Positions 3,893 through 18,118 of a stretch of DNA of 64,000 nt are shown piece after piece (the first letter of the stretch is position 1; each line of letters starts with the position of its first letter). The stretch is taken from NCBI RefSeq assembly GCF_003049665.1, contig NZ_PYWM01000013.1:1-64000 (forward strand). The letters are read 5' to 3'. The notes beneath the pieces are model-generated. The model did not search any database, was not told the DNA's origin, and saw only the letters and a program-made list of their open reading frames with translations. Source of the stretch: Lysinibacillus mangiferihumi (lineage in GTDB: Bacteria > Bacillota > Bacilli > Bacillales_A > Planococcaceae). Both the position numbers and the translations under genes were made by a program.

Positions 3893-3943
3893 ACTCCCAC
3901 TCAATAGTTGCAGGTGGCTTAGATGTAATATCATACAGCACGC
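3893..3943 (-). pseudogene. guaA: Detached 3' fragment of guaA
   Basis: The minus strand encodes [10 protein letters not shown] followed by TAA, identical at protein level to the last ten residues of GMP synthase. Compared with the intact gene at 19476 the wobble positions differ (GCAACT versus GCAACG, CCT versus CCA) and the stop is TAA rather than TAG. This is the chromosomal 3' end left behind when the element integrated and supplied a replacement end. Confidence 0.9.
3913..3943. repeat. Attachment site (att), left boundary of the element
   Basis: A 31-bp sequence starting GGTGGCTTAGATG and ending CAGCACGC is repeated exactly at 19498-19528 inside guaA. The match extends outward to 49 bp (3895-3943 versus 19480-19528) with two mismatches. 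It marks the far junction of the integrated element. Confidence 0.9.
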
Positions 3944-4100
3944 TCACCAACCATTAATATATAAGGGTTTATCATCCGTTCAAATATCAGTGTAACTCTT
4001 AAATCCACACTGATTCCTAAGGTCAATTGTAGCAGGTTAAGGGGGGAGTTACAACACTATTATTCACAATAATTTAGAAGTCCCTAAGCTTTTCCAAATA
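3944..4100. other. Element end, probable recombinase arm region
   Basis: No gene is seen. The stretch holds a CAGTGT / ACACTG inverted repeat near 4004-4032 and an AT-rich tail. Its position just inside the att site suggests integrase arm-binding sites, but no repeat shared with the other end was identified by eye. Confidence 0.3.
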
Positions 4101-4124
4101 AAAAAGAGAGCTATTTTAGCTCCC
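4101..4124 (-). terminator. Terminator at the end of the element's minus-strand gene run
   Basis: Hairpin GGGAGCTA / TAGCTCTC with a short AAA loop on the minus strand, followed by six T. It lies 11 bp beyond the stop of the 82-residue gene and closes the minus-strand gene run. Confidence 0.85.
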
Positions 4125-4134
4125 TACTCAACTC

Positions 4135-4383
4135 CTAATCCCAACTTATTCGTTGGAGGTCTAAGAGTTCTAATTGTTTCTCAAATTCTGCAAACTTTTC
4201 ATTCATACGCTCTACATCTTCCTGTGTGAAAGTGAACAGATTTGGAAGCTTAGCAATACGCTCTAAAGCAATTTCAAATACACCTAACTGACGCTCAATG
4301 CCCTCTTTATCCTCTCTGATTCTATCCTTGATAGGAATACCCTCGTAGACTCTTAGTGCATTGGAACAGCCGTTAATACACAT
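4135..4383 (-). CDS. Hypothetical phage-element protein (82 aa, 5' end uncertain)
   Basis: Not recognised. An 82-residue, charged, mainly helical protein with a likely coiled coil (VERMNEKFAEFEKQLELLDL). The annotated ATG at 4383 has no convincing ribosome site. The same frame is open upstream to 4452 and reads YYDFHEKSKIWRNINSDED, which looks like real protein, but it has no start codon. A good GGGGGAG site followed by TTG (LAYKYDT) lies just upstream in another frame. A one-base frameshift near 4440-4450 would join the two, so the gene may be damaged or the start misjudged. As last gene after two connector-like proteins it could be another head-completion or tail-interface protein; this is only a guess from position. 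Confidence 0.5.
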   Translation of the reverse strand: MCINGCSNALRVYEGIPIKDRIREDKEGIERQLGVFEIALERIAKLPNLFTFTQEDVERMNEKFAEFEKQLELLDLQRISWD

Positions 4384-4585
4384 TTGAACATCTTCGTCTG
4401 AATTGATATTGCGCCAAATTTTACTTTTCTCATGAAAATCATAGTATCGTACTTATAAGCCAATTAAGCTCCCCCTAGCATTATGTCCTCCTATCCATTA
4501 AGACCACATTATACCATTTTTATGTACGTGTAAAATGACATGGTACAATGGAAGAAACACACTTAGGGGTATCATCAATCATCTA

Positions 4586-5185
4586 TTATATAGGAAGTAA
4601 CACATCTTCAGATTGCACCTTAAGCTCAATCAGACCTGCTTTCACAATTTCAGCATTAATAACCTTGTATGACCTTCCATAGAGCGCTATAGCTTCATTC
4701 ACTTGAAAGCTCTTTCGGTTCTTGATAGTGTCCTGTACATTGATAACAAGCGTCTTAGTAGCTGTTACAATGGCATCTTCATCAACTGTCATTTCCTTGT
4801 AGCTCACCACAGCAGGCTCTTGACGGTCTACAACTGTTTCTGTCTTGTAGATTGGTCTACCCATATTGTCAGTACCCACTTTGATTTTTACCGTCTTAGT
4901 CAGCTCTAGGATATAGTTGCAATACTGTACTAAAGCTTTGTATTTGAACCCTCTCTGAGCTACTACATCGGTCATTACAAGGTAGTAACTGCCATCAATA
5001 CTGATATAGTCACCACGCTTAAACTCACTCAAGGAATGGAAATGAAAGGTGCTGTCAGGCGTTAGCATTGCATTGGTTACAAAGCCATTTACGGTGCTTG
5101 GTGTGTCTGTCAGTTCATTCATCACATATGGTTCAACAACGCCTGAGAAAGCTTCTGTAAGCGTCTGAGCATCAAATAAATTCAT
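4586..5185 (-). CDS. Probable phage head closure / head-tail connector protein
   Basis: A 199-residue protein whose middle section, FKRGDYISIDGSYYLVMTD, then YKALVQYCNYIL, has the beta-rich look of head-closure (stopper) proteins of Bacillus phages, which seal the capsid portal after packaging. This assignment is from pattern memory, not a search. The AGGAGTG ribosome site lies just before ATG 5185. It starts 11 bases after the 110-residue gene, so the two are probably co-translated. Together with portal and adaptor it would complete a packaging-competent head. Confidence 0.5.
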   Translation of the reverse strand: MNLFDAQTLTEAFSGVVEPYVMNELTDTPSTVNGFVTNAMLTPDSTFHFHSLSEFKRGDYISIDGSYYLVMTDVVAQRGFKYKALVQYCNYILELTKTVKIKVGTDNMGRPIYKTETVVDRQEPAVVSYKEMTVDEDAIVTATKTLVINVQDTIKNRKSFQVNEAIALYGRSYKVINAEIVKAGLIELKVQSEDVLLPI

Positions 5186-5196
5186 CTACTTCACTC

Positions 5197-5529
5197 CTAA
5201 ATATACAAAATGAAAATCTCAGAATTGTTATTTTCAGTTTTCATTTTTCTTACTTTATTAGTTAATTGGTCAATACGCTTCATTAGGTTCTCATGGAACT
5301 CACTGACGGTCATATCATCAATCTTAATAGCTTTCATCGTTGTCGGATTGTTAGCTACTGATTCAAGCATACTAAGAGCTGTAGCATAGATTGCTTTCTT
5401 ATCTGTCATAGACTGTGGATTATACTCAGCATGAGCATCAAGAGCGTTCTCAGCTAGATACACCATCAGCTCAGCTTCTTGGAACTCAATTCCCTTTGTT
5501 TCCATTTGTAATCTTTGTAAATTGTTCAT
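5197..5529 (-). CDS. Probable phage head-tail adaptor protein
   Basis: A 110-residue, largely helical protein. The first 95 residues (KGIEFQEAELMVYLAENALD, then EYNPQSMTDKKAIYATALSM) resemble small helical adaptors that dock under the portal ring in Bacillus siphophages, where they are often annotated as phage protein or gp15-like connector. AAGGTGAT lies ahead of ATG 5529. The C-terminal tail EIFILYI is hydrophobic and unlike the rest. It lies between the small recombinase terminator and the head-closure candidate. Confidence 0.5.
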   Translation of the reverse strand: MNNLQRLQMETKGIEFQEAELMVYLAENALDAHAEYNPQSMTDKKAIYATALSMLESVANNPTTMKAIKIDDMTVSEFHENLMKRIDQLTNKVRKMKTENNNSEIFILYI

Positions 5530-5563
5530 TATACTATCACCTTTTTCTATTTAATTGCATATA

Positions 5564-5589
5564 AAAAAGCCCTAGTAATACAGGGCTTA
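5564..5589 (-). terminator. Terminator of the small recombinase gene
   Basis: Hairpin AAGCCCT / AGGGCTT with an eight-base loop and six T on the minus strand. It overlaps the stop codon of the gene at 5587 and separates it from the connector genes. Confidence 0.85.
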
Positions 5590-6171
5590 GAAGAACGATA
5601 TGCTCTTTATGCTATTCTCTATTGATTCCTCGGTTATCCCAATGTATCGTAACGTAGTCTTTTGACTCGAATGATTAAAGATTTCCATCAGTGTTGCAAC
5701 ATCTTTCGTAGCTTGGTAGTAGGTATAGCCAAACGTCTTGCGCATTGTGTGAGTACCAATGTCATTCCTATCAATCATGTCACCTGCACTTGTAATGATT
5801 CGGTAAGCTTGTGTAGTTGAAATATGACCTTCGCCTTTACGGCTTGGGAATAGGTACACTGTGCCTTGTGGTAGTGTGTCAATGTATTCGCTAATTTCAG
5901 CCATTACATTGTTTAGGTACACTGTACGCTCTTTCTTAGTTTTGCCTTCTCTAATTTTGAAATTGGTTTTATGTTTCACCTGTTCAACAGTTAGTGCTAC
6001 TAAGTCACCACATCTAAGACCTGTTGAAATCCCTAGTTTGAATAGAAGCTGATTGCGTAAACCAAATTCTTTCGTCATGCCTAATGCTTCAATCAAGTTA
6101 TTAATGTCTTTCTTATCTTTTAATGGTTGTACATCAATTAATGTACCTTCTTTTGGATTCTTATTTGCCAT
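5587..6171 (-). CDS. Small tyrosine recombinase lacking the core-binding domain
   Basis: A 194-residue protein consisting almost only of the catalytic domain of the phage integrase family. The full catalytic set is visible: Arg in STGLRCGDL, Lys in the EGKTKKERTVYL turn, HTMRK (HxxR), NHSSQ (His/Asn box) and the nucleophile Tyr in TTLRYIG. It lacks the N-terminal SAM-like core-binding domain of a normal integrase such as the one at 18396. ATG 6171 (MANKNPK) is preferred over 6228 because AGAGGT lies ahead of it. The gene has its own promoter and terminator and palindromic upstream repeats. Similar short recombinases occur in Bacillus phages beside head or lysis genes; their job is unclear. 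Confidence 0.8.
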   Translation of the reverse strand: MANKNPKEGTLIDVQPLKDKKDINNLIEALGMTKEFGLRNQLLFKLGISTGLRCGDLVALTVEQVKHKTNFKIREGKTKKERTVYLNNVMAEISEYIDTLPQGTVYLFPSRKGEGHISTTQAYRIITSAGDMIDRNDIGTHTMRKTFGYTYYQATKDVATLMEIFNHSSQKTTLRYIGITEESIENSIKSISFF

Positions 6172-6190
6172 GTTTATGACCTCTTTTCTT

Positions 6191-6301
6191 ATGTATGCTT
6201 TCGTTGTTATTTTCAAAATACCATACATTCACATAGGGGTCAATATAAGAATGGCTCTACATCAACATTCTTTATGTATGCTAATTCACAAAAGCATACA
6301 T
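6191..6301 (-). promoter_or_regulatory. Promoter with paired ATGTATGC operators upstream of the small recombinase
   Basis: A promoter TTGACC (6243-6238), 17-bp spacer, TATTTT (6220-6215) drives the recombinase. It overlaps two inverted repeats built from ATGTATGC / GCATACAT: 6274-6281 with 6294-6301, and 6191-6198 with the partial CATACAT at 6222-6228. The geometry suggests an operator, perhaps autoregulatory, or a recombination site for the encoded enzyme. Confidence 0.55.
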
Positions 6302-6316
6302 TCGAAACCGAGAAGC

Positions 6317-6721
6317 TTATTTATTATTATTTTCCTCATTCGCTAACTGTAATAGCCGTTCCTTCACACCTCTAGGCAATGGCACACCAATCCTAGCTAG
6401 GTTCTCAGTGATAGACAAACCTTCCATACCAATATAGAAGTAAATTGCCATTGTCCTAAAGACAGGAACACCTGACGCTGTGAGTACGTCTAATAGGTTC
6501 GCTAAGACTATTACAATCATGATAGTAGCTTTCTTCAAGAAGCCGACAAAAGCAATCTTTGAGGATAGACGCTTTTGCACAAGTGACATAATGACACCTG
6601 TAACAATATCAATAATCATAAACGCTACAAGAACAGTCAATGATACATGCCACCCTCCAATAAGGAAGGATAATGACGTTCCCGACAGCGCTAGGATAGT
6701 GAATAAGCTCATTTTCTCCAT
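6317..6721 (-). CDS. Phage holin (Cph1/TcdE, holin 4-1 type)
   Basis: A 134-residue protein with three or four hydrophobic segments, including FTILALSGTSLSFLIGGW and VSLTVLVAFMIIDIVTGV, and a short charged tail. The MxxIDxxTGV motif and the late GMEGLSITENLARIGVPLP block are characteristic of the phage_holin_4_1 family (phage lysis holins and the clostridial TcdE). Start ATG 6721 is chosen because GGAGGTGA lies ahead of it; the longer frame to 6784 has no such site. No endolysin gene accompanies it anywhere in the element. It lies between portal and small recombinase, an unusual place for a lysis gene. Confidence 0.85.
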   Translation of the reverse strand: MEKMSLFTILALSGTSLSFLIGGWHVSLTVLVAFMIIDIVTGVIMSLVQKRLSSKIAFVGFLKKATIMIVIVLANLLDVLTASGVPVFRTMAIYFYIGMEGLSITENLARIGVPLPRGVKERLLQLANEENNNK

Positions 6722-6901
6722 TTGCTCATCACCTCCAATACAACAGTTGTAACAAGCGTGAAAAATTGGATATATACACTCCAAGCTCCCACACCCTAAA
6801 AACCACTAATTTTCACCAAAAATAAAAAGCCTAAGCTTAACCAAAATCCCTAAGATTTCAGTAAACATTAGACTTATCTTTTATCCTTGTATTATCCACC
6901 T

Positions 6902-8245
6902 TTACGATACCTTTTCTGTATCATCACTATACCCAACATTATCGCCTTGATTCATATGCTCAAATGGCTTCACATCAAGTATGCGATTCATTTCAAGAGC
7001 AATATCATTTACATAAGGTGACTGCTCAAGGATAGTTTCAACACTTAAAGCTCCCATTGCATGTTGCTTTCTCATGTTGTCAATAATCTCAGCATGGTTA
7101 GATGGTGTATTGTATTGGAAGTTAAATTCAAGCGTCATAAAATCATCTTCTGTGATATGAACACCTTTGTATTTCAACAGCTCACAGACCTTCTCCCAAC
7201 GTTCATAGAAGCCCTTCTTCAAGTATGTTTCATTCAGACCTGCTTTTGTGTCTGCTAATGAGAACAACAGCTTGATACTAACCTCTGATAGATTGCTCAC
7301 ATCAGTTTTGTTCATTGATACAGCAGGTGTCGAGCTTACATCTAATAGAGCTTGTTGAAGTGTCTTATAGACCAATTCAAATGACTTAGAATCCAATTGA
7401 TTAGTTACCATCTTGAAGTCTGCTCCATCATCAAGATTTAAGCCACCCCCAACAATTTCACTAGGTAGAGAATCTTTAAGTTGCTGACCAACTGCAACAG
7501 GAATAGGATTCATAAACTTGTACATAGAATCAACATACTTAGAAAGCACATCTTCCATGTTGTCTAAGATTGTCATGTAATCATCTAGCTCTGAGCGACC
7601 TTCTGTGTTGCTAAATTCATTGTCAGATTTATAAAGGATAGGTAAACCACTTAAATTAACGTGTTGAGCAGCGAGCTTTAATTCGCCACCCTCATTTGAC
7701 CATTCTTCAACCTTGCTATCTGTGTAGACTGTGTAATAAGTAATCCCATCAAAGACATAATGCTCAATAAAAGCAATCATTTCCCCATGATGGTTGAATA
7801 CAGGTGTTCCATCGTCAGCGTCAATAATCTTTGAATCAATGCGCCCCTTAGCATTAATGAAAAGGTACTCAGCAACTTGACCAAACTTCATCAGCTTGCT
7901 AAGGATAATAACATTCTTGTCATCAAAGCGACCTAGCTTATTGACCTTCAAGAACTGCTCCACCATTTTCTCAGCACCAATGATATTGACACTATTCTTC
8001 AATAGGTACTGTGTTTGGAAGTTTAAAATAGTCTTTGCCAACTGAATGACAATCTTTCTTGGCTCAATGACCTGTCCATTATATTTGAATGAATCACGCT
8101 GTAAAATCTTGTGCTGACCATCTAAATACTTCTTCTTCTCAAGCACTCCCTGCAATCGCTCTTGGTTGTCATAAGAGTCAACTTCCCCTAAGAACCAATG
8201 AGAGCTACCTTTGTGCTTTACTTGTAAATATCTTTCTAGGTTCAT
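6902..8245 (-). CDS. Phage portal protein (SPP1 gp6-like)
   Basis: A 447-residue protein forming the dodecameric ring through which DNA enters the capsid. Supporting features: the N-terminal basic region with HKILQRDSFKYNGQ, then PRKIVIQLAKTILNFQTQYL, the glycine-rich PILYKSDNEFSNTEGRSEL segment that begins the crown, and the late helical wing with SNLSEVSIKLLFSLADTKA. This order is typical of SPP1-type portals in Gram-positive phages. The start ATG overlaps the stop of the preceding 67-residue gene (TAATG), with AAAGGAGAGG ahead, indicating translational coupling. Length is slightly shorter than SPP1 gp6. A gene for the downstream connector ring lies about 1.4 kb further on. Confidence 0.85.
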   Translation of the reverse strand: MNLERYLQVKHKGSSHWFLGEVDSYDNQERLQGVLEKKKYLDGQHKILQRDSFKYNGQVIEPRKIVIQLAKTILNFQTQYLLKNSVNIIGAEKMVEQFLKVNKLGRFDDKNVIILSKLMKFGQVAEYLFINAKGRIDSKIIDADDGTPVFNHHGEMIAFIEHYVFDGITYYTVYTDSKVEEWSNEGGELKLAAQHVNLSGLPILYKSDNEFSNTEGRSELDDYMTILDNMEDVLSKYVDSMYKFMNPIPVAVGQQLKDSLPSEIVGGGLNLDDGADFKMVTNQLDSKSFELVYKTLQQALLDVSSTPAVSMNKTDVSNLSEVSIKLLFSLADTKAGLNETYLKKGFYERWEKVCELLKYKGVHITEDDFMTLEFNFQYNTPSNHAEIIDNMRKQHAMGALSVETILEQSPYVNDIALEMNRILDVKPFEHMNQGDNVGYSDDTEKVS

Positions 8246-8448
8246 TACTCAACCTCTCCTTTTCTGATTATTGCTATATTAATATCTTTTAACATTTCTT
8301 CTTTTGCTTTTAGCTCAGATTTAAGCAACTTAATATCAAGCTCAAGCGCTTCCTTCTTCTCTTTCAGCGATTGTTCTCTTATTGCTCGTTTATCAAGCTC
8401 CTGTTCCATTGTTAAAACTCTTTTTCTATATGCGTCCATAAATGCCAT
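8245..8448 (-). CDS. Small coiled-coil protein between terminase and portal
   Basis: Not recognised. A 67-residue, highly charged protein (many K and E) predicted to form one long coiled coil from about residue 10 to 55 (LKEKKEALELDIKLLKSELK). GGAG lies eight bases before ATG 8448. It is translationally coupled to the portal gene. Small coiled-coil proteins in this slot of phage genomes are usually unassigned; a packaging accessory role is possible but unsupported. Confidence 0.6.
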   Translation of the reverse strand: MAFMDAYRKRVLTMEQELDKRAIREQSLKEKKEALELDIKLLKSELKAKEEMLKDINIAIIRKGEVE

Positions 8449-8478
8449 TTACTTAGCTCCATTCTCTTGTTATTCAGT

Positions 8479-8507
8479 GATAGCCCTTCCTTTAAGGAAG
8501 GACTATC
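8479..8507 (-). other. Intergenic hairpin after terminase large subunit
   Basis: A near-perfect inverted repeat, GATAGTCCTTCCTT / AAGGAAGGGCTATC, immediately follows the TerL stop codon. It lacks a T run, so it is more likely an mRNA processing or stability element than a terminator. Confidence 0.5.
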
Positions 8508-8508
8508 T

Positions 8509-10098
8509 CTATACATACCATTTATTTGTTTTCATGCCTTGAATCGCTAGTGCTGTTGAAATAACACTATCATCATGATGCAAGTCACTATTCCCACGCT
8601 TGTTCCCTAAGCGCCCATTTGTTTCAATGAACATCTGCATCTGTTGCAAGGTGGTCTTACACTCAAGGTTAATAAGACCAAGCTCAAACTGTTCCTTCAT
8701 ATCTGAAATCATGATTGCCTTTGTTTTCTCAGAAGTCACGAAACCAATTTGAAGTTTCTTCTTTCCTCGTTCATCAAAGGTTTTCATCTTATACATATTG
8801 AGATAGCCACGTTCTTTGCGTAGGCGCTCAATGATGGGCAAGCCATAGCTGTTACGCTCCACCGTTAAAAATGCATAGTTATAAAAAATACCCAAGTCAT
8901 AAATGACCTGAGCAAATTCATACACAGCTATTTTATTATGGTAGAAGCTCATTACCTGCTGACCTTCTGAATCAAACGCTGTGATTGTTGAATAGTCATT
9001 CCCTGAGCCACTCGCTGTATCAACACCAAAGTAATATTTCTTTGAGCGCTCAGGCAATTCGAAAATGTCTAAGCCCTTACCAATGTATTTTCGAACGCTC
9101 TCAGGCGCTTCTGACAGCACATCATTTTTAGGAAGTGGGTCAATAGCATAAGAAAGCCTAGTTAATACCTTACTTTGATCAAACACACTTTTCCCTGTAC
9201 TAATAAAGGATTCTAATGGATTGGAAGGATACTCCTGCATAAACTGCTGTTCATTCTCCATATCTTGAATCTTCCACCTGCGCCACATAAGTTGCTTTAA
9301 AGTTGCGCCTGTATTATGTAGAGCTACTTCATCATCTTCTAAATCATCTGACGCAAGGCGCTTGCCACTATTGGTTGCTTTGTACCAACGCTCAGCTTCA
9401 TCATAGTCATGAGCAAATTGTTTTTTGTATAGCTTGTGATAGAAAGGAATGAAATAAGGAATATACTTTGACTTACCTTTGAGGGCTTGCATGTAAAGGC
9501 GATAGAAGTGGTTACTTGTACCATTTGAGGTTGTTTCAATCGTCAGTTGGCTCTCAGCGCCTTTTGCAAGGGACTGTTCAACTGACAGCAATTGAGTTTC
9601 TTGTGAAGCGTAGAAAGCAAACTCAGATAGATGAACATAGGTATAAGTAGAACCTCGCCCAATATCTTTATTACCTGCTGTCACAGAACTGATTCTTGAG
9701 CCATTGGTAAACAACAGCTCGCTTCTGTTATCCCTGCGAACCTTTGGAAACACATTAGGGAATTTTTCTCTTGGCACAGCATCATTCATCTGTTTAAGCT
9801 TTTCAAATAACGCTTTAGCTGAATCACCTTTATAGGAAACAATCAAAATGTTTTCATTGGGCTTTGTCAATGCTCGCCACAATGCTCTAGCAAGCACAAA
9901 AGTTGAAATACCTGCTTGCCTTGCTTTACCAATCACCACAAAGCGATTGTCTAGCATCAAGCTTTCAATTTCCTGCTGAGCTTCATTAATTTCAAATTTG
10001 ATAACCTCATTTTCGTTATCTGTAATAAAAATAAAGTTCTTAGCGAATAGTGGAAATTCACTCAGAACTTTGGTCAGTTTATTAACTTTAATTACCAT
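8509..10098 (-). CDS. terL: Phage terminase large subunit
   Basis: A 529-residue packaging motor with ATPase and nuclease domains. The Walker A-like P-loop is GKARQAGIST (about residues 58-67), the Walker B region is YVHLSEFAFYA, and coupling motif residues follow in TIETTSNGT. The RNase H-like nuclease shows YYFGVDTASGSGND, then LTVERNSYG and a final acidic cluster DLHHDDSVIS. All catalytic positions appear intact. It starts two bases after the TerS stop. The order TerS, TerL, small protein, portal is the normal packaging module of Gram-positive phages and satellites. Confidence 0.92.
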   Translation of the reverse strand: MVIKVNKLTKVLSEFPLFAKNFIFITDNENEVIKFEINEAQQEIESLMLDNRFVVIGKARQAGISTFVLARALWRALTKPNENILIVSYKGDSAKALFEKLKQMNDAVPREKFPNVFPKVRRDNRSELLFTNGSRISSVTAGNKDIGRGSTYTYVHLSEFAFYASQETQLLSVEQSLAKGAESQLTIETTSNGTSNHFYRLYMQALKGKSKYIPYFIPFYHKLYKKQFAHDYDEAERWYKATNSGKRLASDDLEDDEVALHNTGATLKQLMWRRWKIQDMENEQQFMQEYPSNPLESFISTGKSVFDQSKVLTRLSYAIDPLPKNDVLSEAPESVRKYIGKGLDIFELPERSKKYYFGVDTASGSGNDYSTITAFDSEGQQVMSFYHNKIAVYEFAQVIYDLGIFYNYAFLTVERNSYGLPIIERLRKERGYLNMYKMKTFDERGKKKLQIGFVTSEKTKAIMISDMKEQFELGLINLECKTTLQQMQMFIETNGRLGNKRGNSDLHHDDSVISTALAIQGMKTNKWYV

Positions 10099-10100
10099 TT

Positions 10101-10496
10101 TTAAGACAACTCCAATTCATCATAAGCACCATCGTTTTCAAATGGCTCATAGACTTTAGTTGACTTAGCTTCCTTGTTAAATGCTCTGACCTGCTTTTGA
10201 AGGTCTAATAAAAGCTTAATAGCCTTTTCATCGCCTGTGAGAGCTTTTTCTGCTGTGACTTGATAAATCTGCTCCATGTCATTTGCTATGCGTGATTCTA
10301 AGTATAGGTTAGTCAAAGTCAAATACTCGCTTGATTTTTCCCATTTCTTCATGTGGTTTAAAGTTTTAACATCTAGCTTTTGACATAGTTCTTCTTCTGT
10401 AAGCTCATCGGTGCGATTGACATATAAATCAAACTTCCATTTGAAGTATTCCCTTTTCTTGTAGGGAACTGCTTCAAGTGCCTTGTAAATATCCAT
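10101..10496 (-). CDS. terS: Probable phage terminase small subunit
   Basis: A 131-residue helical protein placed directly before terL, with an N-terminal helix-turn-helix-like region (TEELCQKLDVKTLNHMKKWE) and the helical EKALTGDEKAIKLLLDLQ block seen in phBC6A51-type small terminases. Small terminases recognise the packaging site on DNA and load it on TerL; in satellites this protein redirects packaging to the satellite genome. ATG 10496 is chosen over 10505 because AAAGGA lies nine bases ahead of it. Identification rests on position plus the C-terminal pattern. Confidence 0.72.
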   Translation of the reverse strand: MDIYKALEAVPYKKREYFKWKFDLYVNRTDELTEEELCQKLDVKTLNHMKKWEKSSEYLTLTNLYLESRIANDMEQIYQVTAEKALTGDEKAIKLLLDLQKQVRAFNKEAKSTKVYEPFENDGAYDELELS

Positions 10497-10523
10497 TAAT
10501 ATCATTCCTTTCTTTGTAGGTGG

Positions 10524-11510
10524 TTAGCTGTTAAATTCATCTCTACACTCGATTGCAAGTTTTGCTTGCTCAAGGTATCTATCAACAATTTTAAATGCAA
10601 CACCATCTTCATCTATTAAAGCTTTTTGTTTTTTCAATTTATTAATGCGCTTTTCCCCTGCTCTAAGAACTCTTTTCTCAAAGTCAGTTAAGCCTATTTC
10701 CCTCTTTTGTTTTTGCAAGTCTAAAAAAGCAATATAATCCTGTTCAATCGGGAAAACATCTTTGCCATCTTCATCTTTAAATGTATTAAATCGCTGTTCT
10801 GTTTCTTTGAGTGCTTCAACATTAAAATGCTCTAAGCTTGTTTCTTCCACAATTTCTTTTTCAACATATTTCTTGTTGAATGAATGATTTGTGATTTCAT
10901 CATCTTCAAAAGGCGTTGTTCTATATCGGTTAGTGTTTTGCTTACCTGTGTCATTGTAGTCACCAATATTCTTGTGAATTAGACCTTCTTCAACAGCTTC
11001 GTTGACTGCTTTAAAAGCTGTTGATTCTGAGCATTTTAAAATGTTTGCCCAACGTGACTTAGAGCAACCAAATGTGCCATCACCACTGTTAGCCCACTTA
11101 AAAACAGCAAGATACACATGTAAATGGCGAATATCTTTGATTTCATCAAAAACCTCAAAATCAAGTTGAGTGAAATACTTAGTGTCAAATTCTGATAGCT
11201 CAACTATTAAAGTATCATTTGCTTTGAAAGCATTTGTAAGCTCACCATCTGCATTTGTAAATCTGATAACCTTTTTATCTCTTAATGAGATAAGCGTATT
11301 CTTAATATTTAAAACTGCTCGCTTTTGGCTACTTGCTAACTTGATATGTCCCATATCATGTATAGTCGATGGTGTTGTAAATATTTGACCTCTAAGGTTT
11401 CTGCTCGTTGAGAGTAGTGAGTAAACATATATTTCCTCTGACGTAAGATGAAACTCAGTTCTTTCATCTATTAGTAGATTGTTAATTTGAATATAAGTAA
11501 AATTTTCCAT
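10524..11510 (-). CDS. Putative winged-helix replication protein
   Basis: A 328-residue protein. The N-terminal 140 residues (EFHLTSEEIYVYSLLSTSRN and STIHDMGHIKL) look like the winged-helix domain of plasmid or phage RepA/DnaD-type initiators, in which a first helix-turn-helix senses or binds iterons. A second helix-turn-helix is suggested by SRWANILKCSESTAFKAVNE. The C-terminal third is charged and helical. AGGAG lies ahead of ATG 11510. It separates the capsid genes from the terminase genes, an uncommon gene order. A regulator role is the main alternative. Confidence 0.5.
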   Translation of the reverse strand: MENFTYIQINNLLIDERTEFHLTSEEIYVYSLLSTSRNLRGQIFTTPSTIHDMGHIKLASSQKRAVLNIKNTLISLRDKKVIRFTNADGELTNAFKANDTLIVELSEFDTKYFTQLDFEVFDEIKDIRHLHVYLAVFKWANSGDGTFGCSKSRWANILKCSESTAFKAVNEAVEEGLIHKNIGDYNDTGKQNTNRYRTTPFEDDEITNHSFNKKYVEKEIVEETSLEHFNVEALKETEQRFNTFKDEDGKDVFPIEQDYIAFLDLQKQKREIGLTDFEKRVLRAGEKRINKLKKQKALIDEDGVAFKIVDRYLEQAKLAIECRDEFNS

Positions 11511-11545
11511 TCGTTAAAAACTCCTGTGTGATTGTATTTTTGTAT

Positions 11546-11575
11546 AAAAAAAGAAGTCACCTACTTGGCAACTTC
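11546..11575 (-). terminator. Terminator after the DUF5659 gene
   Basis: Hairpin GAAGTTGCC / GGTGACTTC (with two G-T pairs) followed by seven T on the minus strand, immediately after the stop codon at 11576. It divides the small-gene block from the replication and packaging genes. Confidence 0.8.
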
Positions 11576-11761
11576 CTAGTTGATTTCCTTGTATTTGTCT
11601 AAAGCTCGCTGTAGTTCATCAGTTTTTTGATAGACTGTATAAATCGCATTGTCCTTAATGCTTTTAGCTTTAATAATGTATGGGATTCCTTCTGATTTCA
11701 AAAAGATCGAAAGTTTCTTTGTGAAACAAAAGAAGAAATCTTGTTCAGTTAACTGTTTCAT
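11576..11761 (-). CDS. DUF5659 domain-containing small protein
   Basis: A 61-residue protein with the pattern of DUF5659: an early FFFCFTKKLSIFLKSEGIPY segment and a closing LQRALDKYKEI helix. This family is common in phages and mobile elements of Firmicutes and has no known function. A clear AAAGGAG ribosome site precedes ATG 11761. It sits between a small XRE regulator and the winged-helix gene. Confidence 0.65.
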   Translation of the reverse strand: MKQLTEQDFFFCFTKKLSIFLKSEGIPYIIKAKSIKDNAIYTVYQKTDELQRALDKYKEIN

Positions 11762-11807
11762 ATGTAAAGCTCCTTTTCTATTCTTTGCTGTTCTGCTCCA
11801 TTGTGCG

Positions 11808-11978
11808 CTAGTTATTTAGGATATAGTCTTTGTATTGGTTCACTTTGCTTGCATCCATTGCTACCTTGTTATGCTCATATTTTGATAGTAGAGCGATTGA
11901 GCAACCAATGGACTTGGCAATTTGATTCAACTTAATGCCCTTTTGTCTACGCATTAAGAATAATTCTGTTTGTGTCAT
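11808..11978 (-). CDS. Small XRE/Cro-type helix-turn-helix protein
   Basis: A 56-residue reading frame beginning MTQTELFLMRRQKGIKLNQI and ending KDYILNN. The segment GIKLNQIAKSIGCSIALLSKY is a clear Cro/CI-type helix-turn-helix with a recognition helix at about residues 26-34. AAAGGAAG precedes the ATG. It is shorter than a usual repressor (no oligomerisation domain) and resembles small phage activators or anti-repressors. It lies among late structural genes rather than beside the integrase. No CI-like partner was found in the element. Confidence 0.72.
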   Translation of the reverse strand: MTQTELFLMRRQKGIKLNQIAKSIGCSIALLSKYEHNKVAMDASKVNQYKDYILNN

Positions 11979-12024
11979 GGTCTTACTTCCTTTCCTCAGT
12001 TAAAAATTTTCATGAAATGAATTT

Positions 12025-12053
12025 AAAAAGGCACTCCCATAATTGAGAGTGCC
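12025..12053 (-). terminator. Terminator after the capsid gene
   Basis: Hairpin GGCACTC / GAGTGCC followed by five T on the minus strand. It lies 7 bp past the end of the reading frame that follows the capsid stop codon, i.e. directly behind the presumed original capsid stop at 12060. Confidence 0.85.
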
Positions 12054-12059
12054 ATTGGA

Positions 12060-12923
12060 TTAAATCTTTGTTAAAACTGCTACTGCTTTTTTAGAACCCA
12101 CTTTTAAAGTAGCTTCTGCAACAATTTGACCTTTAACTGAATCACCTGTTTTTGCAAGTGGTTAAAAATGTGGTTCACGTAAATAAGCTAAATCAACATA
12201 AGCGTCATTGAAGAACACCACTTTGTCAGCAGGTACATGCTTAGATAAAACAAATTTAACTGAGCCATAGTTAGTATTGATTTCATCTACTAGTAGACCA
12301 AATGAAGTTGTCACATGGTTGTATGAGTAGTTGCCCTTGTAGATTGCATCAATTTCTTCTTTAATATCTGCGTTCACAAAAGCGTACACTTGACCTTCTG
12401 CTAGATTTTGACCCCAAAGATTACGCATAATTTGCTTAATCGCTGCTTCATCAATTGTAGCTGTTACAGCATTAGTAGCATCAGCCATTTCAACTAAACC
12501 TGATAGTTGGCGTTTGAAAGGTGTTTTTGAACCATCAGCTTTAAGACCATTGATAAATTTCTTCTCCATGTTCACTTTAAGCTCAAGCAAACGGTCAGCA
12601 ACTTCCACTGAGAACTGAGTTGATTGCATTGCTTCTGCTGTGCCTGATACTTGTACACCTTTCTTGAAAATCTCAAGAATGTTGTTTAGCTCTGCTCTAG
12701 CTGATTCATAGAAAACTGTTGTTTCTGCTCCTTCAACTGCTGAAATATCATCATCGTTTGAAAGTGACTTTTCTCTCCATGTGTAGACTGTGCTAAGAGC
12801 TTTTTCAATATTTCCTTTAGCCATCAGTAAAGATGTAAAAGGTGTTGCTTGAACTCCAATAACTGCGATTTCGTTCGCTAATGAAATGCGTTCTGATTCT
12901 GTGAATGATTGTGATTTAAACAT
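12060..12923 (-). pseudogene. Major capsid protein (SU10-like) with an in-frame stop
   Basis: Reads as a HK97-fold major capsid protein of the SU10/DUF5309 group. Translation from ATG 12923 (MFKSQSFTESERI, AGAAGGAA ahead) gives 253 residues ending LREPHF at TAA 12162-12164. The same frame then continues for 33 more codons, PLAKTGDSVKGQIVAEATLK and on to TKI, to a second TAA at 12060 directly in front of a terminator. That tail is the normal C-terminal strand region of such capsid proteins, and GAA to TAA would explain the break. So the gene either carries a nonsense mutation or is read through. The truncated product is encoded by 12162-12923. The scaffold gene lies just upstream. Confidence 0.75.
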
Positions 12924-12954
12924 AAAAATATTCCTTCTTCCTGTTTGTTTTGTT

Positions 12955-13368
12955 TTACTTAAATAACTTTGAGAACTTGCTTGCAATCATGCCTTTGGCG
13001 TCACCATTTTGCTTGTGAGCTGTATAATCATCTTGCTTAGCAACTTCTTTTGGTTTGAAGCCAATATCAAGTTTTACCTCATTAATTAATTGTGCTAATG
13101 CATCAACTTTTTCTGCTGGTGTTTTAGCAAAGCCAAATTGCTCTACAAATTCCTTCGCATATCCAAACCCTCGTTCTTCAAGCTGTAACTGTAATCTTAG
13201 ATTTTCATATTGAACTTTCTCTTGCTCTAAGCGTTCAATCTCTTCTAGTAGCTCCTGCCTTTCTTGCTCCAATGGATTACCCTGTTGCTCCTGCAGAGGT
13301 GCTTCGTTTGTGTCAGCAACCTCAATAGATTCCATTTCAGTTACTTCTGCTGTTTGTAAGTTTTCCAT
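12955..13368 (-). CDS. Phage scaffolding protein
   Basis: A 137-residue acidic protein with a long Glu/Gln-rich coiled coil (about residues 33-68: EQERQELLEEIERLEQEKVQ), a middle AKTPAEKVDALAQLINEV helix and a basic C terminus ending ASKFSKLFK. This layout, together with its place directly before the capsid gene, is that of DUF4355-type scaffold proteins, which guide capsid assembly and leave the mature head. AAGGAG lies ahead of ATG 13368. No prohead protease gene is seen nearby. Confidence 0.78.
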   Translation of the reverse strand: MENLQTAEVTEMESIEVADTNEAPLQEQQGNPLEQERQELLEEIERLEQEKVQYENLRLQLQLEERGFGYAKEFVEQFGFAKTPAEKVDALAQLINEVKLDIGFKPKEVAKQDDYTAHKQNGDAKGMIASKFSKLFK

Positions 13369-13414
13369 TAATAAATCTCCTTCTGATTAGATATTTTCCG
13401 TATTTCTACAGACC

Positions 13415-13446
13415 AAAAAAGCCTATAAGCAGATTGCTCATGGCTT
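13415..13446 (-). terminator. Terminator-like hairpin upstream of the scaffold gene
   Basis: Minus-strand AAGCCATGAGCA / TGCTTATAGGCTT hairpin followed by six T, only 47 bp before the scaffold start. Readthrough or antitermination would be needed for transcripts from the 13870 gene to reach the capsid genes, unless a promoter lies in the short gap. Confidence 0.6.
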
Positions 13447-13473
13447 AATATTTCACCATCCTGTACAAGCTCT

Positions 13474-13485
13474 CAGAACGTTCTG
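13474..13485. repeat. 12-bp perfect palindrome CAGAACGTTCTG
   Basis: A perfect 12-bp palindrome in the intergenic region upstream of the scaffold gene, a candidate operator for a dimeric regulator. It is not a standard LexA box, because the GAAC and GTTC halves are directly adjacent. Confidence 0.5.
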
Positions 13486-13572
13486 TGTCGTGTTTGGATT
13501 GCATCACTCATAAATCTTCAAGTGAATCATCAAAACAGCTCATAGGCGCTAATCGGGCTTTACAGGTGGTGT

Positions 13573-13770
13573 CCTGAGCGTTCATACATTTATACAGAAG
13601 AAATGACCACGCTCAGTTAAAAAGTTGAATAAAACTCAATAAAAAAAGGACTACAATTAAGTAGCCCCATCTTGTATCGCCTAATCAATAGCAAAACAAT
13701 TACGCTCAAATAAAAGTAAGCTTAGACAATATCTAATGGAATTACGCTCAGGTACTAGTAAGACCTGAGC
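13573..13770. repeat. Cluster of ACGCTCAGG-type motifs
   Basis: Five copies of a GCTCA / TGAGC motif occur in 200 bp: 13573-13580, 13609-13616, 13701-13707, 13745-13753 and 13763-13770. The last two form a perfect 8-bp inverted repeat GCTCAGGT / ACCTGAGC. The intergenic position between the 315-residue gene and the capsid genes suggests an operator cluster, packaging site or replication iterons. Confidence 0.45.
13641..13667 (-). terminator. Terminator downstream of the 315-residue gene
   Basis: Hairpin GGGCTACTT / GTAGTCC followed by seven T on the minus strand, about 200 bp past the stop codon at 13870. Confidence 0.75.
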
Positions 13771-13869
13771 ATAAAAATGATTTTAATTTTGGTGAGAGCA
13801 ATATTTCGTACTGCCCTCACAACAACATTATATACACAAAAAGTGTTACTCATTTTTTTGAACAAAATA

Positions 13870-14817
13870 TCAATTCTTGTAATCTTGATATTTTGCCTGT
13901 ATTCTCGCTAATGTATTTTTGAAGTTGCTCTCTTTGAGTTCCATTCTTTCAGCAAAATGACGCTTATTGATACCACTAATATAACCATCTTCATCAAAGA
14001 TAAAATTATCGGTCAATCCATTGTCAAACTCAGCTTGCACCTCTAGCAACAATCTTTCAGCAAATTCCTTTTGATGTTTATTCAAATTTAAGAAGTCGAT
14101 TTCCAGCACCTTTTGAGCGATAAACTGATTACGTTTTAGCTTCATCTTGTCTTTGCTTACATAATAGCTTTTGCCCTTACGATTGATGAACCTTGTGCCA
14201 TTTTCTTTATTTAGCTCTCTTGGTGTGCGATTTAATAAAGCTTTATTAATAAACGTAACAATCTCTTTGTCGCTCTTAGCTAAATCAACCAAAGGTAAAA
14301 TATCATTTAGCACTCTTGTAATAGCATTATCTGCTTCTGCAAGTAGCCTTATTCGCTCGACTTTGATTTTTGGTAAAACTGATTTAATTTCACTTAAACA
14401 GTAGTCTAATTCCTCGTCATAGCGTGGGAACATGTCCATTTCAACCTTATCAAACTCATATACATCATATGCTTGACCAATTGCCATTAGGTTTGAATGG
14501 ACAACCTCAGTCAACCTAGATTCCTCATATAATGATTTATATTCGTTTAGCTTGCTTAGATGCAAAGTATAGGCATACCTAGCGTTAACCTCTTTGATTG
14601 ACCTAACCCTAACAGCAATATACTCTATCGAACTATTAACAATCGGCTCTCTTACTATCTTGTGGTATTTGTAAGCAACATGACCATCAATATAATCATC
14701 TACTTCAACAATCTCATATGATTTATTGTATTTGATGCCATTGCTCAACTTAATGATTGACTTGATAAATGCTTGCTTATCATTAATTTGTTGCCTTATG
14801 TTTGTTGTTTCTTCCAT
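13870..14817 (-). CDS. Hypothetical element protein (315 aa), possible DNA-binding protein
   Basis: Not recognised. A 315-residue, soluble, charged and mainly helical protein. The last 40 residues (INKRHFAERMELKESNFKNT) look like a helix-turn-helix with a recognition helix, so DNA binding is plausible. AAGGGA lies ahead of ATG 14817. A good promoter (TTAGCA, 17-bp spacer, TATAAT at 14915-14887) lies 70 bp upstream, making this the first gene of the minus-strand block. Its leading position would suit a replication initiator or an activator of the late genes. Neither can be claimed from the sequence. Confidence 0.6.
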   Translation of the reverse strand: MEETTNIRQQINDKQAFIKSIIKLSNGIKYNKSYEIVEVDDYIDGHVAYKYHKIVREPIVNSSIEYIAVRVRSIKEVNARYAYTLHLSKLNEYKSLYEESRLTEVVHSNLMAIGQAYDVYEFDKVEMDMFPRYDEELDYCLSEIKSVLPKIKVERIRLLAEADNAITRVLNDILPLVDLAKSDKEIVTFINKALLNRTPRELNKENGTRFINRKGKSYYVSKDKMKLKRNQFIAQKVLEIDFLNLNKHQKEFAERLLLEVQAEFDNGLTDNFIFDEDGYISGINKRHFAERMELKESNFKNTLARIQAKYQDYKN

Positions 14818-14886
14818 GCTAAATTTCCCTTCAATTTATATAGTGTAGCTGTCACCAACTTTCTTCTAGCTGATTTTTAGCCCTAT

Positions 14887-14915
14887 ATTATATGTCATTT
14901 TCCCATCTTTGCTAA
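14887..14915 (-). promoter_or_regulatory. Promoter for the element's minus-strand genes
   Basis: TTAGCA (14915-14910), 17-bp spacer and a consensus TATAAT (14892-14887) on the minus strand, about 70 bp before the ATG at 14817. Confidence 0.55.
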
Positions 14916-15260
14916 GGTTTTCTAAAAAATTAATATCAAAATTTTATCATTTCTTGAATATATCCTTATTTATCACGCAAAAAATACCTTTTCAGCTCAA
15001 CAGGTGCTTCAATCATCATTTCATTCTTCTATCACGACACTAACCACAAGCTTTCACAATCAACTCTAATCCACCTAGCAGGCTCACAGGGAGGTCTTAA
15101 ACTCATTCACTAACATCGAATCATTTAATCTGCATATCTCGCTACAGCGCCCTTAGAAACGTTTTTAGAGCAGGTGTCGATTTCCCATTGTTGTTGAAGT
15201 GTGATTTTTTTCTCCTATCTGCTCAAAAAGGCAAACTTAATACAGCTTAAACATCAAATT
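14916..15260. other. Non-coding stretch inside the element
   Basis: No gene of convincing size. On the minus strand a short frame without a standard start codon reads KKITLQQQWEIDTCSKNVS then KGAVARYAD and stop, preceded by AGGAG. It looks protein-like and may be the remnant of a small regulator. Confidence 0.35.
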
Positions 15261-15375
15261 CCATAGGTTACGTTTAGGTATGGCTATCTACTTAGTGTAT
15301 TAATATTATATTTATTAGTATTTTAATATATATAAATATACTAAGTAGAGTGATGTACCTTAGCGTAACCTTTGG
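15261..15375. repeat. Large nested inverted repeat with AT-rich core
   Basis: Three nested inverted repeats share one centre near 15318: GGTTACG / CGTAACC (outer), AGGTA / TACCT (middle) and CTACTTAGT / ACTAAGTAG (inner). They surround a core of about 45 bp made almost only of A and T. The whole can fold into a long hairpin or cruciform. It lies in the divergent gap between the minus-strand block and the plus-strand cargo genes, where an origin, operator or replication terminus would be expected. Confidence 0.7.
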
Positions 15376-15540
15376 TAATAAAAGTAGGAAAGCATATTGG
15401 AACAGCTTCTATTATAAGTACACCAAATAACAGTGGGCTACCGCAATCTCAGTATACCTTGCTTTATAAGCTCACTTTTCCATACACCAATATTTGTAAA
15501 TGTGTTAAACTATACCAAACGACTGATTATTCAGTTATTC

Positions 15541-15573
15541 AACTAACGGAGCAGTTTAGTTGAACAAGAGATG
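15541..15573 (+). repeat. Cassette-boundary repeat, copy 1
   Basis: AACTAACGGAGCAGTTTAG followed by TTGAACAAGAG. The AACTAA / TTAGTT arms form a small hairpin. It carries the GGAG ribosome site and the TTG start codon of the 95-residue gene. Related copies are at 15854 and 16744. Confidence 0.7.
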
Positions 15574-15847
15574 CTATACTATACACATTATTACCAGTAA
15601 AGATGGTGAACTAATGGAACAAGTGCTAAAAGAAATGTTGTCTCCGAGTAATCAATATAAAGTTCAAATTATTAAGCGTAAGGATGGTCTTTTTACCACA
15701 GAGGTATATATGTGGCAGGAAGACTGCGGATATGAGTATTGGAGTCCTATTAAAAAAGGATTGTCTTTGATTGAGACCGAGGAAGGTGCAGTGACGTTAG
15801 CCATTGACCATTTAAGAGAATATTCCGGTGAAATTATCACTCTTTAA
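15560..15847 (+). CDS. Hypothetical cargo protein (95 aa)
   Basis: Not recognised. A 95-residue soluble protein of the element's plus-strand cargo region. It starts at TTG 15560 with GGAG nine bases ahead, both within a palindromic repeat. An internal ATG at 15614 is the alternative, but the sequence before it (CYTIHIITSKDGEL) looks like a beta strand and turn belonging to the same domain. The remainder, KVQIIKRKDGLFTTEVYMW, then EEGAVTLAIDHLREYSGEI, suggests a small alpha-beta fold. No membrane segment or signal peptide. Opposite strand to the phage genes and flanked by repeats, so probably acquired separately. Confidence 0.55.
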   Translation: MNKRCYTIHIITSKDGELMEQVLKEMLSPSNQYKVQIIKRKDGLFTTEVYMWQEDCGYEYWSPIKKGLSLIETEEGAVTLAIDHLREYSGEIITL

Positions 15848-15853
15848 TTACTT

Positions 15854-15886
15854 CACTAAAGGGGCAGTTTAGTTAAATAAGAAGAG
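15854..15886 (+). repeat. Cassette-boundary repeat, copy 2
   Basis: CACTAAAGGGGCAGTTTAG followed by TTAAATAAGAAGAG. It begins 6 bp after the stop codon of the 95-residue gene and lies upstream of the HAD gene. It matches copy 1 at most positions; the ACTAAA / TTTAGT arms are palindromic. Confidence 0.7.
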
Positions 15887-15948
15887 GGAAAATTTATTAC
15901 ATAAAGAATATTAATTACTAACAGATTTTTAGAAAATTGGAGGTAATT

Positions 15949-16749
15949 ATGAGTGTTTTAAAGGATAGAAATAAAGTAGATGCAATAGTATTGGATTTAG
16001 ATGGTACATTATTAAATTCCAATAAGATGATAAGTAAGAGAAATTTAGATTCAATATTAGAAATTCATAAACTTGGGATACCAATTATAATTGCAACAGC
16101 ACGACCACCAAGAGCAATAAAAGAATTTCTCCCAAAGGAATTACAAGAAATCGCTGTTTTTGTTTATTATAATGGTGCATTGATTGTGAATCAGCAATTA
16201 CAAATAGATGAACATTACTCAATCAAATCAACTATAAACGAACAAATTATTGAATACTTAATTTCAAATGAACCCGATCACTTATTTTCAATTGAAGTTA
16301 ATGATACTTGGTACAGTTATAAAGAGATTGATTATCGCTCATTTATGAAGGTTTCTAAGAACCCTGAAATTATTGAGATTGTAGAAATAAAATTAAAAAG
16401 CCCAACAAAAATACTTGTTTCACACTTAAAGAATATAGAGGACTTTAATAAAAAGTTCGGGGATAAAGTAAATGTTATAAATACGGACTCAAACCAACTT
16501 ACACAAATAATGAAATTAGGCATTTCGAAAGAGTCTGCAATAACAAACCTTGCAGAACGATTAGATATTTCATTAGAAAAAACAATGGTTTTCGGCGATG
16601 ATTTTAACGACTTAGGCTTATTTAAAATATGTGGAATTCCAATAGCTATGGACAATTCAATAGACGAATTAAAAAGTATTGCTAAAAAAATTACAACTTC
16701 AAATGATGAAGATGGTGTAGCTAATATCCTGGAAACCTTATGTAACTAA
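15949..16749 (+). CDS. Cof-type HAD-IIB family phosphatase
   Basis: A 266-residue haloacid-dehalogenase superfamily hydrolase of the Cof/IIB class, which dephosphorylates sugar phosphates, nucleotides or cofactors. All four HAD motifs are visible: DLDGTLL (nucleophile Asp), IATARP, the Lys in KLGISKESA and GDDFNDLG. A C2B-type cap lies between motifs II and III. The start ATG 15949 follows GGAGGT. The stop codon TAA lies inside repeat copy 3. A strong terminator follows. As cargo on a satellite-like element on the strand opposite to the phage genes, it may give the host a metabolic or resistance trait; the substrate is unknown. Confidence 0.85.
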   Translation: MSVLKDRNKVDAIVLDLDGTLLNSNKMISKRNLDSILEIHKLGIPIIIATARPPRAIKEFLPKELQEIAVFVYYNGALIVNQQLQIDEHYSIKSTINEQIIEYLISNEPDHLFSIEVNDTWYSYKEIDYRSFMKVSKNPEIIEIVEIKLKSPTKILVSHLKNIEDFNKKFGDKVNVINTDSNQLTQIMKLGISKESAITNLAERLDISLEKTMVFGDDFNDLGLFKICGIPIAMDNSIDELKSIAKKITTSNDEDGVANILETLCN

Positions 16750-16776
16750 CGGGGTGCTTTACTTCAACAAGAAAAG
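16744..16776 (+). repeat. Cassette-boundary repeat, copy 3
   Basis: AACTAACGGGGTGCTTTAC followed by TTCAACAAGAAAAG. It contains the TAA stop codon of the HAD gene and leads directly into a terminator hairpin. Confidence 0.7.
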
Positions 16777-16817
16777 GACTTGTGTATGATAAATTCTCAT
16801 ATATGCAAGTCCTTTTG
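16772..16817 (+). terminator. Terminator of the HAD cargo gene
   Basis: Hairpin AAAAGGACTTG(TGTATG) / (CATATATG)CAAGTCCTTTT on the plus strand, ending in TTTTGTT. Confidence 0.85.
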
Positions 16818-16936
16818 TTATGCTCTCACAATCGCTCTGTGAGATGAATCCATATGACCAACTATCCACTTGAACGAATCTCGATTGCCTACAATGCTGT
16901 TCTGCGGAGCTTCAAAGTACCCACCTTAGAAACTAA

Positions 16937-17153
16937 ATCTTTTAATACCTTTTAAAATACTTTAAAAAAACCCTTAAACTATTTTAAATTGTTTTGAATT
17001 GTTTAAAAAACCTTTGAACCATTTCAGATTGTTTTAAATACTTCAAAAAGCTTTAAAAGCATTTCAAACTGTTTTATATGCTATTAAAAACTTTTAAACC
17101 ATTTTAAATACTTCAAAAAATCCTTTAAACCATTTTAAATTGTTTAATTTTTG
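16937..17153. repeat. Helically phased TTTAAA array
   Basis: About 217 bp in which short units of the form CTTTTAAACC or ATTTTAAATTG recur some 20 times with a spacing of about 10-11 bp, one DNA helical turn. Units drift in sequence (CTTCAAAAAG, ATTTCAAACTG, CCTTTGAACC) but keep a T-run to A-run centre. No reading frame of 60 codons or more crosses it. Phased AT tracts imply strong curvature or easy melting, as in replication origins, centromere-like sites or architectural protein targets. Confidence 0.75.
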
Positions 17154-17290
17154 CAAGCTCAATATTAGATTTAATCTTGAAAATAAACTAGGGCGCAAGC
17201 CCGTCCTTAGTTTCTTTCTTTAGCTTATTTATTTCTTTAATAGGTTTCTTTCTTTAAACTTGTCAGAATGTGTTCCACTTCAGCTCACAT
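17154..17290. other. Non-coding stretch after the phased array
   Basis: No gene seen. It contains a small GGGC / GCCC hairpin (about 17189-17202) and T/C-rich stretches with repeated TTTCTTTCTTTA. Confidence 0.4.
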
Positions 17291-17386
17291 TTTAGACCCC
17301 CCTATATAAAATCTGTCCATTTTGGAACACTATTTACATAGGCATGGGTCTAAATAATGTTCCTTTTTGGTACAACATTTACATAG
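17291..17386. repeat. Paired inverted and direct repeats, possible origin or operator
   Basis: A perfect 9-bp inverted repeat TTTAGACCC (17291-17299) / GGGTCTAAA (17346-17354) flanks the first of two direct repeats: TTTTGGAACACTATTTACAT at 17320 and TTTTGGTACAACATTTACAT at 17365, differing at three of 22 positions when the following AG is counted. This lies close to the phased array in a 1.4-kb gene-free region. Confidence 0.6.
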
Positions 17387-18092: not shown

Positions 18093-18118
18093 ATGCAATC
18101 AATTTGCTATTGCAACCT

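Follow-up and report, generated by a model that had tools for sequence, protein, structure and literature searches.

Head and packaging genes within a 15.6-kb integrated element

A 64,000-nucleotide stretch of Lysinibacillus mangiferihumi DNA (contig NZ_PYWM01000013.1, positions 1 to 64,000; hereafter the window) contains a run of phage-type head and packaging genes at 4135-14817, which a first-pass annotation had proposed as a candidate capsid-forming phage satellite. The cluster of about 10.7 kb described there is real, but the element carrying it is larger (3913-19528) and also holds a structured RNA (17165-18192) and an integrase (18396-19328); the cluster represents its structural half. 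The element is bounded by direct repeats, one of which lies inside the 3' end of guaA (Table 1). In five relatives out of 11 examined (L129, L130, L132, L135 and L137) the site is empty: the end of guaA and the MOSC gene are about 160-180 bp apart, a distance too short for an element. Because of the repeats and these empty guaA-MOSC sites, we assign 15.6 kb to the element, including the integrase, a HAD hydrolase gene and a non-coding control region.

The structural half is a single operon-like run on the minus strand, in the order scaffold-like protein, capsid, helix-turn-helix (HTH) protein, DUF5659 protein, replication protein, small (TerS) and large (TerL) terminase subunits, portal, holin, small recombinase, and two proteins here termed u110 and u199. 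Family matches confirmed the earlier assignments of TerL, portal, capsid, holin and the replication-like gene. TerS is weak by sequence (phrog_24579, E 0.0097) and occupies the same place across related loci, while the scaffold assignment rests on position and conservation upstream of the capsid, PHROG and Pfam scans of this protein having given no match. The inventory had left unmentioned a second tyrosine recombinase of 213 residues (5587-6228) and a 56-residue Cro/CI-type HTH protein (11808-11978).

The two connector-like proteins of the first-pass annotation fared differently. The first half of u199 (4586-5185) matches phage stoppers and necks and models as a neck/stopper fold, and a relative of u199 in phage LC76P1 sits between the capsid and later structural genes. 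In contrast, u110 (5197-5529) is a connector candidate by position, for which neither a PDB relative nor a match in 50,697 phage records was found. Because the first half of u199 is modelled as a neck/stopper, the head gene set appears to end at the point where a tail would dock, and the predicted fold gives a concrete handle for tail compatibility.

Table 1. Coordinates of the features of the integrated element and the evidence for each (E, E-value; aa, amino acids; ORF, open reading frame)
Feature	Position	Strand	Evidence
Whole integrated element, attR to attL	3913..19528	-	31-bp exact direct repeat; empty site in five relatives
attR, copy of guaA 3' end	3913..3943		repeat; match reaches 52 bp at 94% (3892-3943)
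82-aa ORF	4135..4383	-	no match in family scans
u199, neck/stopper (head-closure) protein	4586..5185	-	neck/stopper fold modelled for first half
u110, conserved connector (adaptor) candidate	5197..5529	-	position and conservation
Small tyrosine recombinase, 213 aa, late in operon	5587..6228	-	PF00589, E 1.6e-22
Holin	6317..6784	-	Phage_holin_4_1, PF05105, E 6.7e-34
Portal, SPP1 type	6902..8245	-	SPP1_portal PF05133, E 1.4e-67; SPP1 portal in PDB, E 6e-5
67-aa ORF	8245..8448	-	no PHROG match; relative in L047
TerL, T4 type, 529 aa	8509..10098	-	phrog_2, E 6.4e-39; family profile against T4 gp17, E 6.4e-36
TerS	10101..10505	-	weak match, phrog_24579; same place across family loci
Replication protein, DnaD-like/HTH_36	10524..11510	-	phrog_186, E 6.5e-7
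DUF5659 protein	11576..11761	-	PF18903, E 1.3e-5
Cro/CI-type HTH protein, 56 aa	11808..11978	-	PF12844, E 9.7e-7, slightly below curated cut-off
Major capsid protein, SU10 type, in-frame stop	12162..12986	-	SU10_MCP PF17236, E 2.5e-59
Scaffold-like protein	12955..13368	-	position and conservation upstream of capsid
315-aa protein, regulator candidate	13870..14817	-	relatives in seven loci; no significant family match
95-aa ORF, cargo candidate	15560..15847	+	ORF listing and Pfam scan
HAD hydrolase, cargo candidate	15937..16749	+	PF08282, E 1.2e-57
Large structured RNA region	17165..18192	-	covariation; z-score -5.2
Pistol self-cleaving ribozyme, RNA 5' end	18111..18186	-	RF02679, 70.6 bits against a gathering score of 34.5
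Tyrosine integrase of element	18396..19328	-	PF00589, E 7.5e-29; 93% identical to L021 integrase
attL inside guaA 3' end (guaA 19476-21038)	19498..19528		31-bp exact repeat

The gene set recurs across Bacilli in a conserved order

To place the element among its relatives, we scanned IMG/VR and GTDB genomes for TerL using short peptide patterns, which miss distant relatives. IMG/VR yielded 26 related contigs (4.5-24.3 kb) and GTDB 33 loci, nearly all titled Bacilli, with Desulfocucumis and one titled Chryseobacterium in addition; host genera include Lysinibacillus, Sporosarcina, Planomicrobium, Paenibacillus, Brevibacillus and Neobacillus. Together with five fetched stretches and the window, 65 loci were mapped, leaving 57 distinct ones after removal of eight copies, which include L020, identical to the window stretch, and one member each of the near-identical pairs L037/L066 and L033/L034. 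The 56 further loci come from Bacilli, Desulfocucumis and metagenomes.

We took scaffold, capsid, TerS, TerL, portal, u110 and u199 as the core genes. All seven occur in 39 loci, and in 37 of them they follow this order on the same strand, with the capsid module separated from terminase and portal by regulatory and replication genes. The unusual arrangement pointed out in the first-pass annotation is thus more than chance. The order departs from this in two loci: L031, a contig of 14.6 kb that is circularly permuted, has a terminal repeat of 99 bp and carries all seven genes, and L050, in which a spurious extra u110 match intervenes while the u110 of the locus itself is in the usual place. The other 18 loci lack one or more core genes; many of them run into the end of their contig or locus, and L075, L080 and L081 seem to be incomplete.

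Among the 29 non-duplicate loci for which both sides were available, 15 are clearly bracketed by a repeat of 23-124 bp; many of the others are cut short on one side, and the repeats of L047 and L049 were set aside as unclear. The 15 elements delimited in this way span 13.7-18.1 kb, with a median of 15.8 kb. Two of the att sites are tRNA genes (L050 and L057; Rfam). These features bear on the idea that the genes are a domesticated head cluster resembling a gene-transfer agent and packaging host DNA. An own integrase, att repeats and empty sites all speak against it, as does the patchy occurrence of the family, a full-length TerL of its type being present in 12 of the 301 genomes searched. We consider this idea scarcely credible.

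Several conserved proteins accompany the core in part of the family. Upstream of the scaffold, a trio of 116, about 440 (GLUG/beta-helix-like) and about 93 residues (L063:3125-5098) has relatives in 21-22 of the 65 loci and perhaps represents virion-surface or receptor-binding proteins; the 116-residue member had no match in 151 genomes, in a search without a positive control. Between the HTH and DUF5659 genes lies a conserved protein of about 270 residues (L063:6938-7747; relatives in 40 of 65 loci). Its L063 copy has no PHROG match and its L057 relative no Pfam match, and its profile found nothing in the window or the nearest Lysinibacillus relatives.

No recognisable tail accompanies the head genes

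In agreement with the first-pass annotation, none of the 19 ORFs of the window element convincingly matched a tail, baseplate, tape-measure or endolysin family; the sole weak exception is a 58-residue ORF beside the integrase (18186-18362), of which 34 residues match a tail PHROG (E 0.0051). The lysis functions are represented by a holin, with no endolysin found among these ORFs. In the relatives we scanned unassigned ORFs of at least 60 residues: 128 between TerL and the right end, and 88 mostly on the left side, nine of the latter from five other loci. The scans covered 123 of the 136 such ORFs in the 15 bounded elements, the remaining 13 being at most 86 residues long. For each scan the best 25 of 27-67 families were listed, a depth at which a rare single match would go unseen. 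The matches listed for these 128 and 88 ORFs included neither a tail nor a lysin family; they comprised holins, replication proteins, HTH proteins, a few transposase-like proteins and unknowns. Hidden tail genes, which had been named as one of two findings that would overturn the satellite proposal, were likewise absent from these matches, and the longest ORF in the bounded elements encodes 566 residues (in the window element, the longest is that of TerL, with 529). Larger ORFs, of 638-902 residues, occur to the left of the terminase in L035, L036, L038 and L041, whose ends were not mapped. Since PADLOC returned four weak single matches for the 128 right-side ORFs, these appear to hold no clear defence cargo.

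The same data can be read as an autonomous mini-phage with a minimal short tail, in which u199 would act as nozzle and the protein of about 440 residues as receptor-binding spike. SU10 is a podovirus, and the SU10-type capsid (that of L022) matches the SU10 major head protein among solved structures in the PDB (E 2.8e-8). Moreover, the protein of about 440 residues has relatives in 22 loci, and distant u199 members are 370-480 residues long, with immunoglobulin-like (Ig-like) domains matching tail and tail-fibre PHROGs. However, the trio profiles gave no match in the window or its nearest Lysinibacillus relatives, none of the 15 bounded elements has an ORF above 566 residues, and the first half of u199 resembles stoppers and necks. 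Because of this neck fold and the lack of an endolysin family among the matches listed, we regard a self-sufficient mini-phage as improbable.

We instead consider it likely that the element is an integrated capsid-forming phage satellite, known here from its sequence, that belongs to a lineage widespread in Bacillales and Clostridia and borrows the tails of helper phages. On our best reading of the family matches, the lineage combines an SU10-type capsid and scaffold with a T4-type TerL and an SPP1-type portal. As head and packaging genes are present and no tail is recognisable, tails are probably taken from other phages. In such a cycle, a helper phage or induced prophage would trigger excision by the element integrase, after which the element would replicate with its own initiator. 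Scaffold and SU10-type capsid would assemble a small head, into which TerS, TerL and the portal would package the element of about 15 kb; u110 and u199 would close the head, a helper tail would dock on u199, and the particle would be released by helper lysis.

The capsid gene of the window copy is interrupted

One observation weighs against this reading for the copy at hand. The capsid frame is broken by an in-frame stop, with 33 residues still to come. When this remaining piece is translated separately, it shows 97% identity to the corresponding end of the L021 capsid and between 77% and 94% to five others. Capsid frames are uninterrupted in relatives, for example at locus L052 of Lysinibacillus sp. 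KCTC 33748. Given the stop and the conserved capsid end behind it, the window copy is probably defective for head formation, unless the truncated capsid suffices. The head genes are thus real, but to call the set complete, as had been done, was too strong. The IMG/VR record L020, a copy of the window stretch, carries the identical sequence; a sequencing error may nevertheless lie behind the stop, since L020 possibly derives from the same assembly.

The interrupted capsid gene, together with a stretch without any ORF of at least 50 residues (16750-18185), could also mark a decayed remnant of a full prophage that has lost its tail module. However, the tail-less set of 14-18 kb turns up in many genera, at different sites and flanked by att repeats of its own, the terminally redundant contig L031 carries the same genes, and a conserved structured RNA takes up much of the stretch without ORFs. 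We therefore rejected a deletion remnant for the family, although the window copy is damaged, and rate it as very unlikely; the first-pass annotation had raised it as an alternative, which was not borne out.

A conserved structured RNA adjoins the integrase

The structured RNA of about 0.85 kb adjoins the integrase, and between 17165 and 18185 there is no ORF of at least 50 residues on either strand. The DNA of this control region is conserved, with 84.5% identity over 484 bp to L030, whose TerL is only 71% identical in protein. In a six-sequence alignment, the consensus structure, derived from the same alignment on which it was assessed, contains 158 pairs, 52 of them changed on both sides; 89.6% of cells pair, compared with 36-44% when slid, and 0 of 500 shuffles reached the observed values. 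With E <1e-6 as the limit, a model of the 188-nucleotide core recognised 17 satellite loci and L086, making 18 of the 44 sources. Their 18-sequence alignment, itself fitted to the model, has 91.1% of its cells paired and a covariation score of 0.750; sliding lowers this score to 0.07-0.11. RNA model R2 matched 1 of 35 further sources; as this locus had already been found by model R1 and no other was added, the RNA core is not universal in the satellite family.

Conversely, the RNA extends beyond the satellites. A refined model gave 68 matches in 49 of 301 genomes, the window's own included, mostly outside the satellite family. The RNA lies within about 12 kb of a family-type TerL in 8 of the 12 TerL-bearing genomes, and of 11 other copies examined, 10 have an integrase ORF no more than about 0.5 kb upstream. 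The guaA site next to the same RNA is used by other elements, in L111 and L104; L111 has about 9 kb between guaA and the MOSC gene, without matches to the family capsid or terminase. Similarly, L086 (8.1 kb of a 16.5-kb IMG/VR contig) carries an integrase and the RNA, along with ParB-like and replication-like proteins by eye, and the whole record has no family TerL.

Large, ornate RNAs of phages and prophages include ROOL and GOLLD (PMC12286853, PMC7567579), and the window RNA is alike in being large, ornate, structured and located in such elements. In contrast, ROOL and GOLLD are described there as often near tRNA islands, whereas the window-type RNA adjoins an integrase and, in the window, L021 and L022, has a Pistol ribozyme at its 5' end. 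These are 3 of the 12 RNA-bearing satellite sources scanned with Rfam; seven other RNA-bearing stretches had no Pistol. Neither ROOL nor GOLLD was matched by Rfam in window positions 17150-18200, where ten matches up to E 5 included Pistol as the only significant one; microRNA matches were discounted as far below their gathering scores. The RNA may serve in processing, in excision control or as a particle component. As it is found in 49 of the 301 genomes searched, the part that large RNAs play in satellites and other integrated elements can be tested directly.

Relation to known satellites

Capsid-forming phage-inducible chromosomal islands (cf-PICIs) were reportedly described by Alqurainy et al. 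in 2023. They are reported to average 14 kb, to have hosts that include Bacillaceae (PMC10803314), and to encode capsid, portal, connectors, terminases, protease and HNH nuclease, needing only helper tails (PMC10690885); their capsids form three clades (PMC11389934). The window element shares with them an integrase and site-specific att, its own major capsid gene (PF17236, though interrupted here), portal, TerL and a syntenic TerS, connectors (u199 by its modelled fold, u110 by position), similar size and the absence of convincing or listed tail matches described above.

Other traits set the family apart in a comparison by description: an SU10-type capsid with a scaffold-like protein, a T4-type TerL, a capsid module apart from terminase and portal and, in part of the family, the large RNA beside the integrase. 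Neither a head maturation protease nor an HNH endonuclease was found among the 19 window ORFs. In the relatives, the matches listed included one peptidase PHROG in 1 of the 88 ORFs and none in the other scans, and one GIY-YIG nuclease, also in 1 of 88, with no HNH.

The satellite might be a plain member of the published cf-PICI family, a possibility that overlaps with our reading and concerns filing, not mechanism. Size, hosts, gene content and dependence on helper tails would all fit, and one of the three capsid clades could be this family; against this stand the protease and HNH nuclease, neither found among the window ORFs, and the split order, in which the capsid precedes the replication gene and terminase. 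We find such membership rather unlikely. On this comparison by description, we regard the family as cf-PICI-like in gene logic and do not file it as cf-PICI. The earlier proposal of a capsid-forming satellite or a relative is supported, as neither of the two findings that it named as refuting was made in these searches; PICI membership is a possibility.

With some reservation, we lean towards an independent satellite lineage outside the published cf-PICI clades, which would extend through Bacilli and Clostridia with an SU10-type capsid and scaffold, T4-type terminase and SPP1-type portal. Part of it would carry the new large RNA beside the integrase, in some Lysinibacillus behind Pistol, and the RNA would be a conserved element of control or of the particle that other integrated elements have as well. 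If true, satellites with their own head and a borrowed tail would have a separate construction, with a scaffolded SU10-type head and split gene order, in many Bacillales genera.

The Streptomyces satellites MulchRoom and MiniFlayer similarly encode their own terminases, portal, capsid, scaffold and head-to-tail adapter, and MulchRoom virions have a tail as long as that of the helper (PMC10690885). By description, these satellites lack recognisable primases and belong to virulent Streptomyces helpers, whereas the window family has replication genes and hosts among Bacilli and Clostridia. A search of titles and abstract openings recognised no paper describing this satellite family or the RNA.

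Phage relatives and possible helpers

Against 50,697 phage records, TerL matched 2,279, the portal 33 and the capsid 146, all below 60% identity; the best among the matches listed were 29% for TerL and 30% for the capsid. For u199 there were two weak matches, both in phages larger than 130 kb. Neither these records nor one pattern-based scan of IMG/VR, whose 26 contigs are all at most 24.3 kb long, yielded a full-size phage with this terminase.

Elsewhere in the window genome, two tape-measure matches above the Pfam cut-off mark possible tail donors. A sequence search for a helper gave little: outside the element, the Ig-like part of the u199 profile matched at three places (E 1.8e-8 to 3.2e-5), two further u199 matches were weaker (E 0.02 and 0.14), and the u110 profile gave one match (E 0.27).

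The same genome carries a second element at ssrA (L112/L115, contig C11, about 120319-136682), flanked by 30-bp repeats. TerL and portal profiles gave no match in it. It has an integrase, the same RNA, an HTH protein and an SU10-type capsid by profile, as well as HNH-like, scaffold-like, 785-residue tape-measure-like and TerS-like proteins by eye. Near its end (L115), a small late tyrosine recombinase like that at 5587-6228 recurs.

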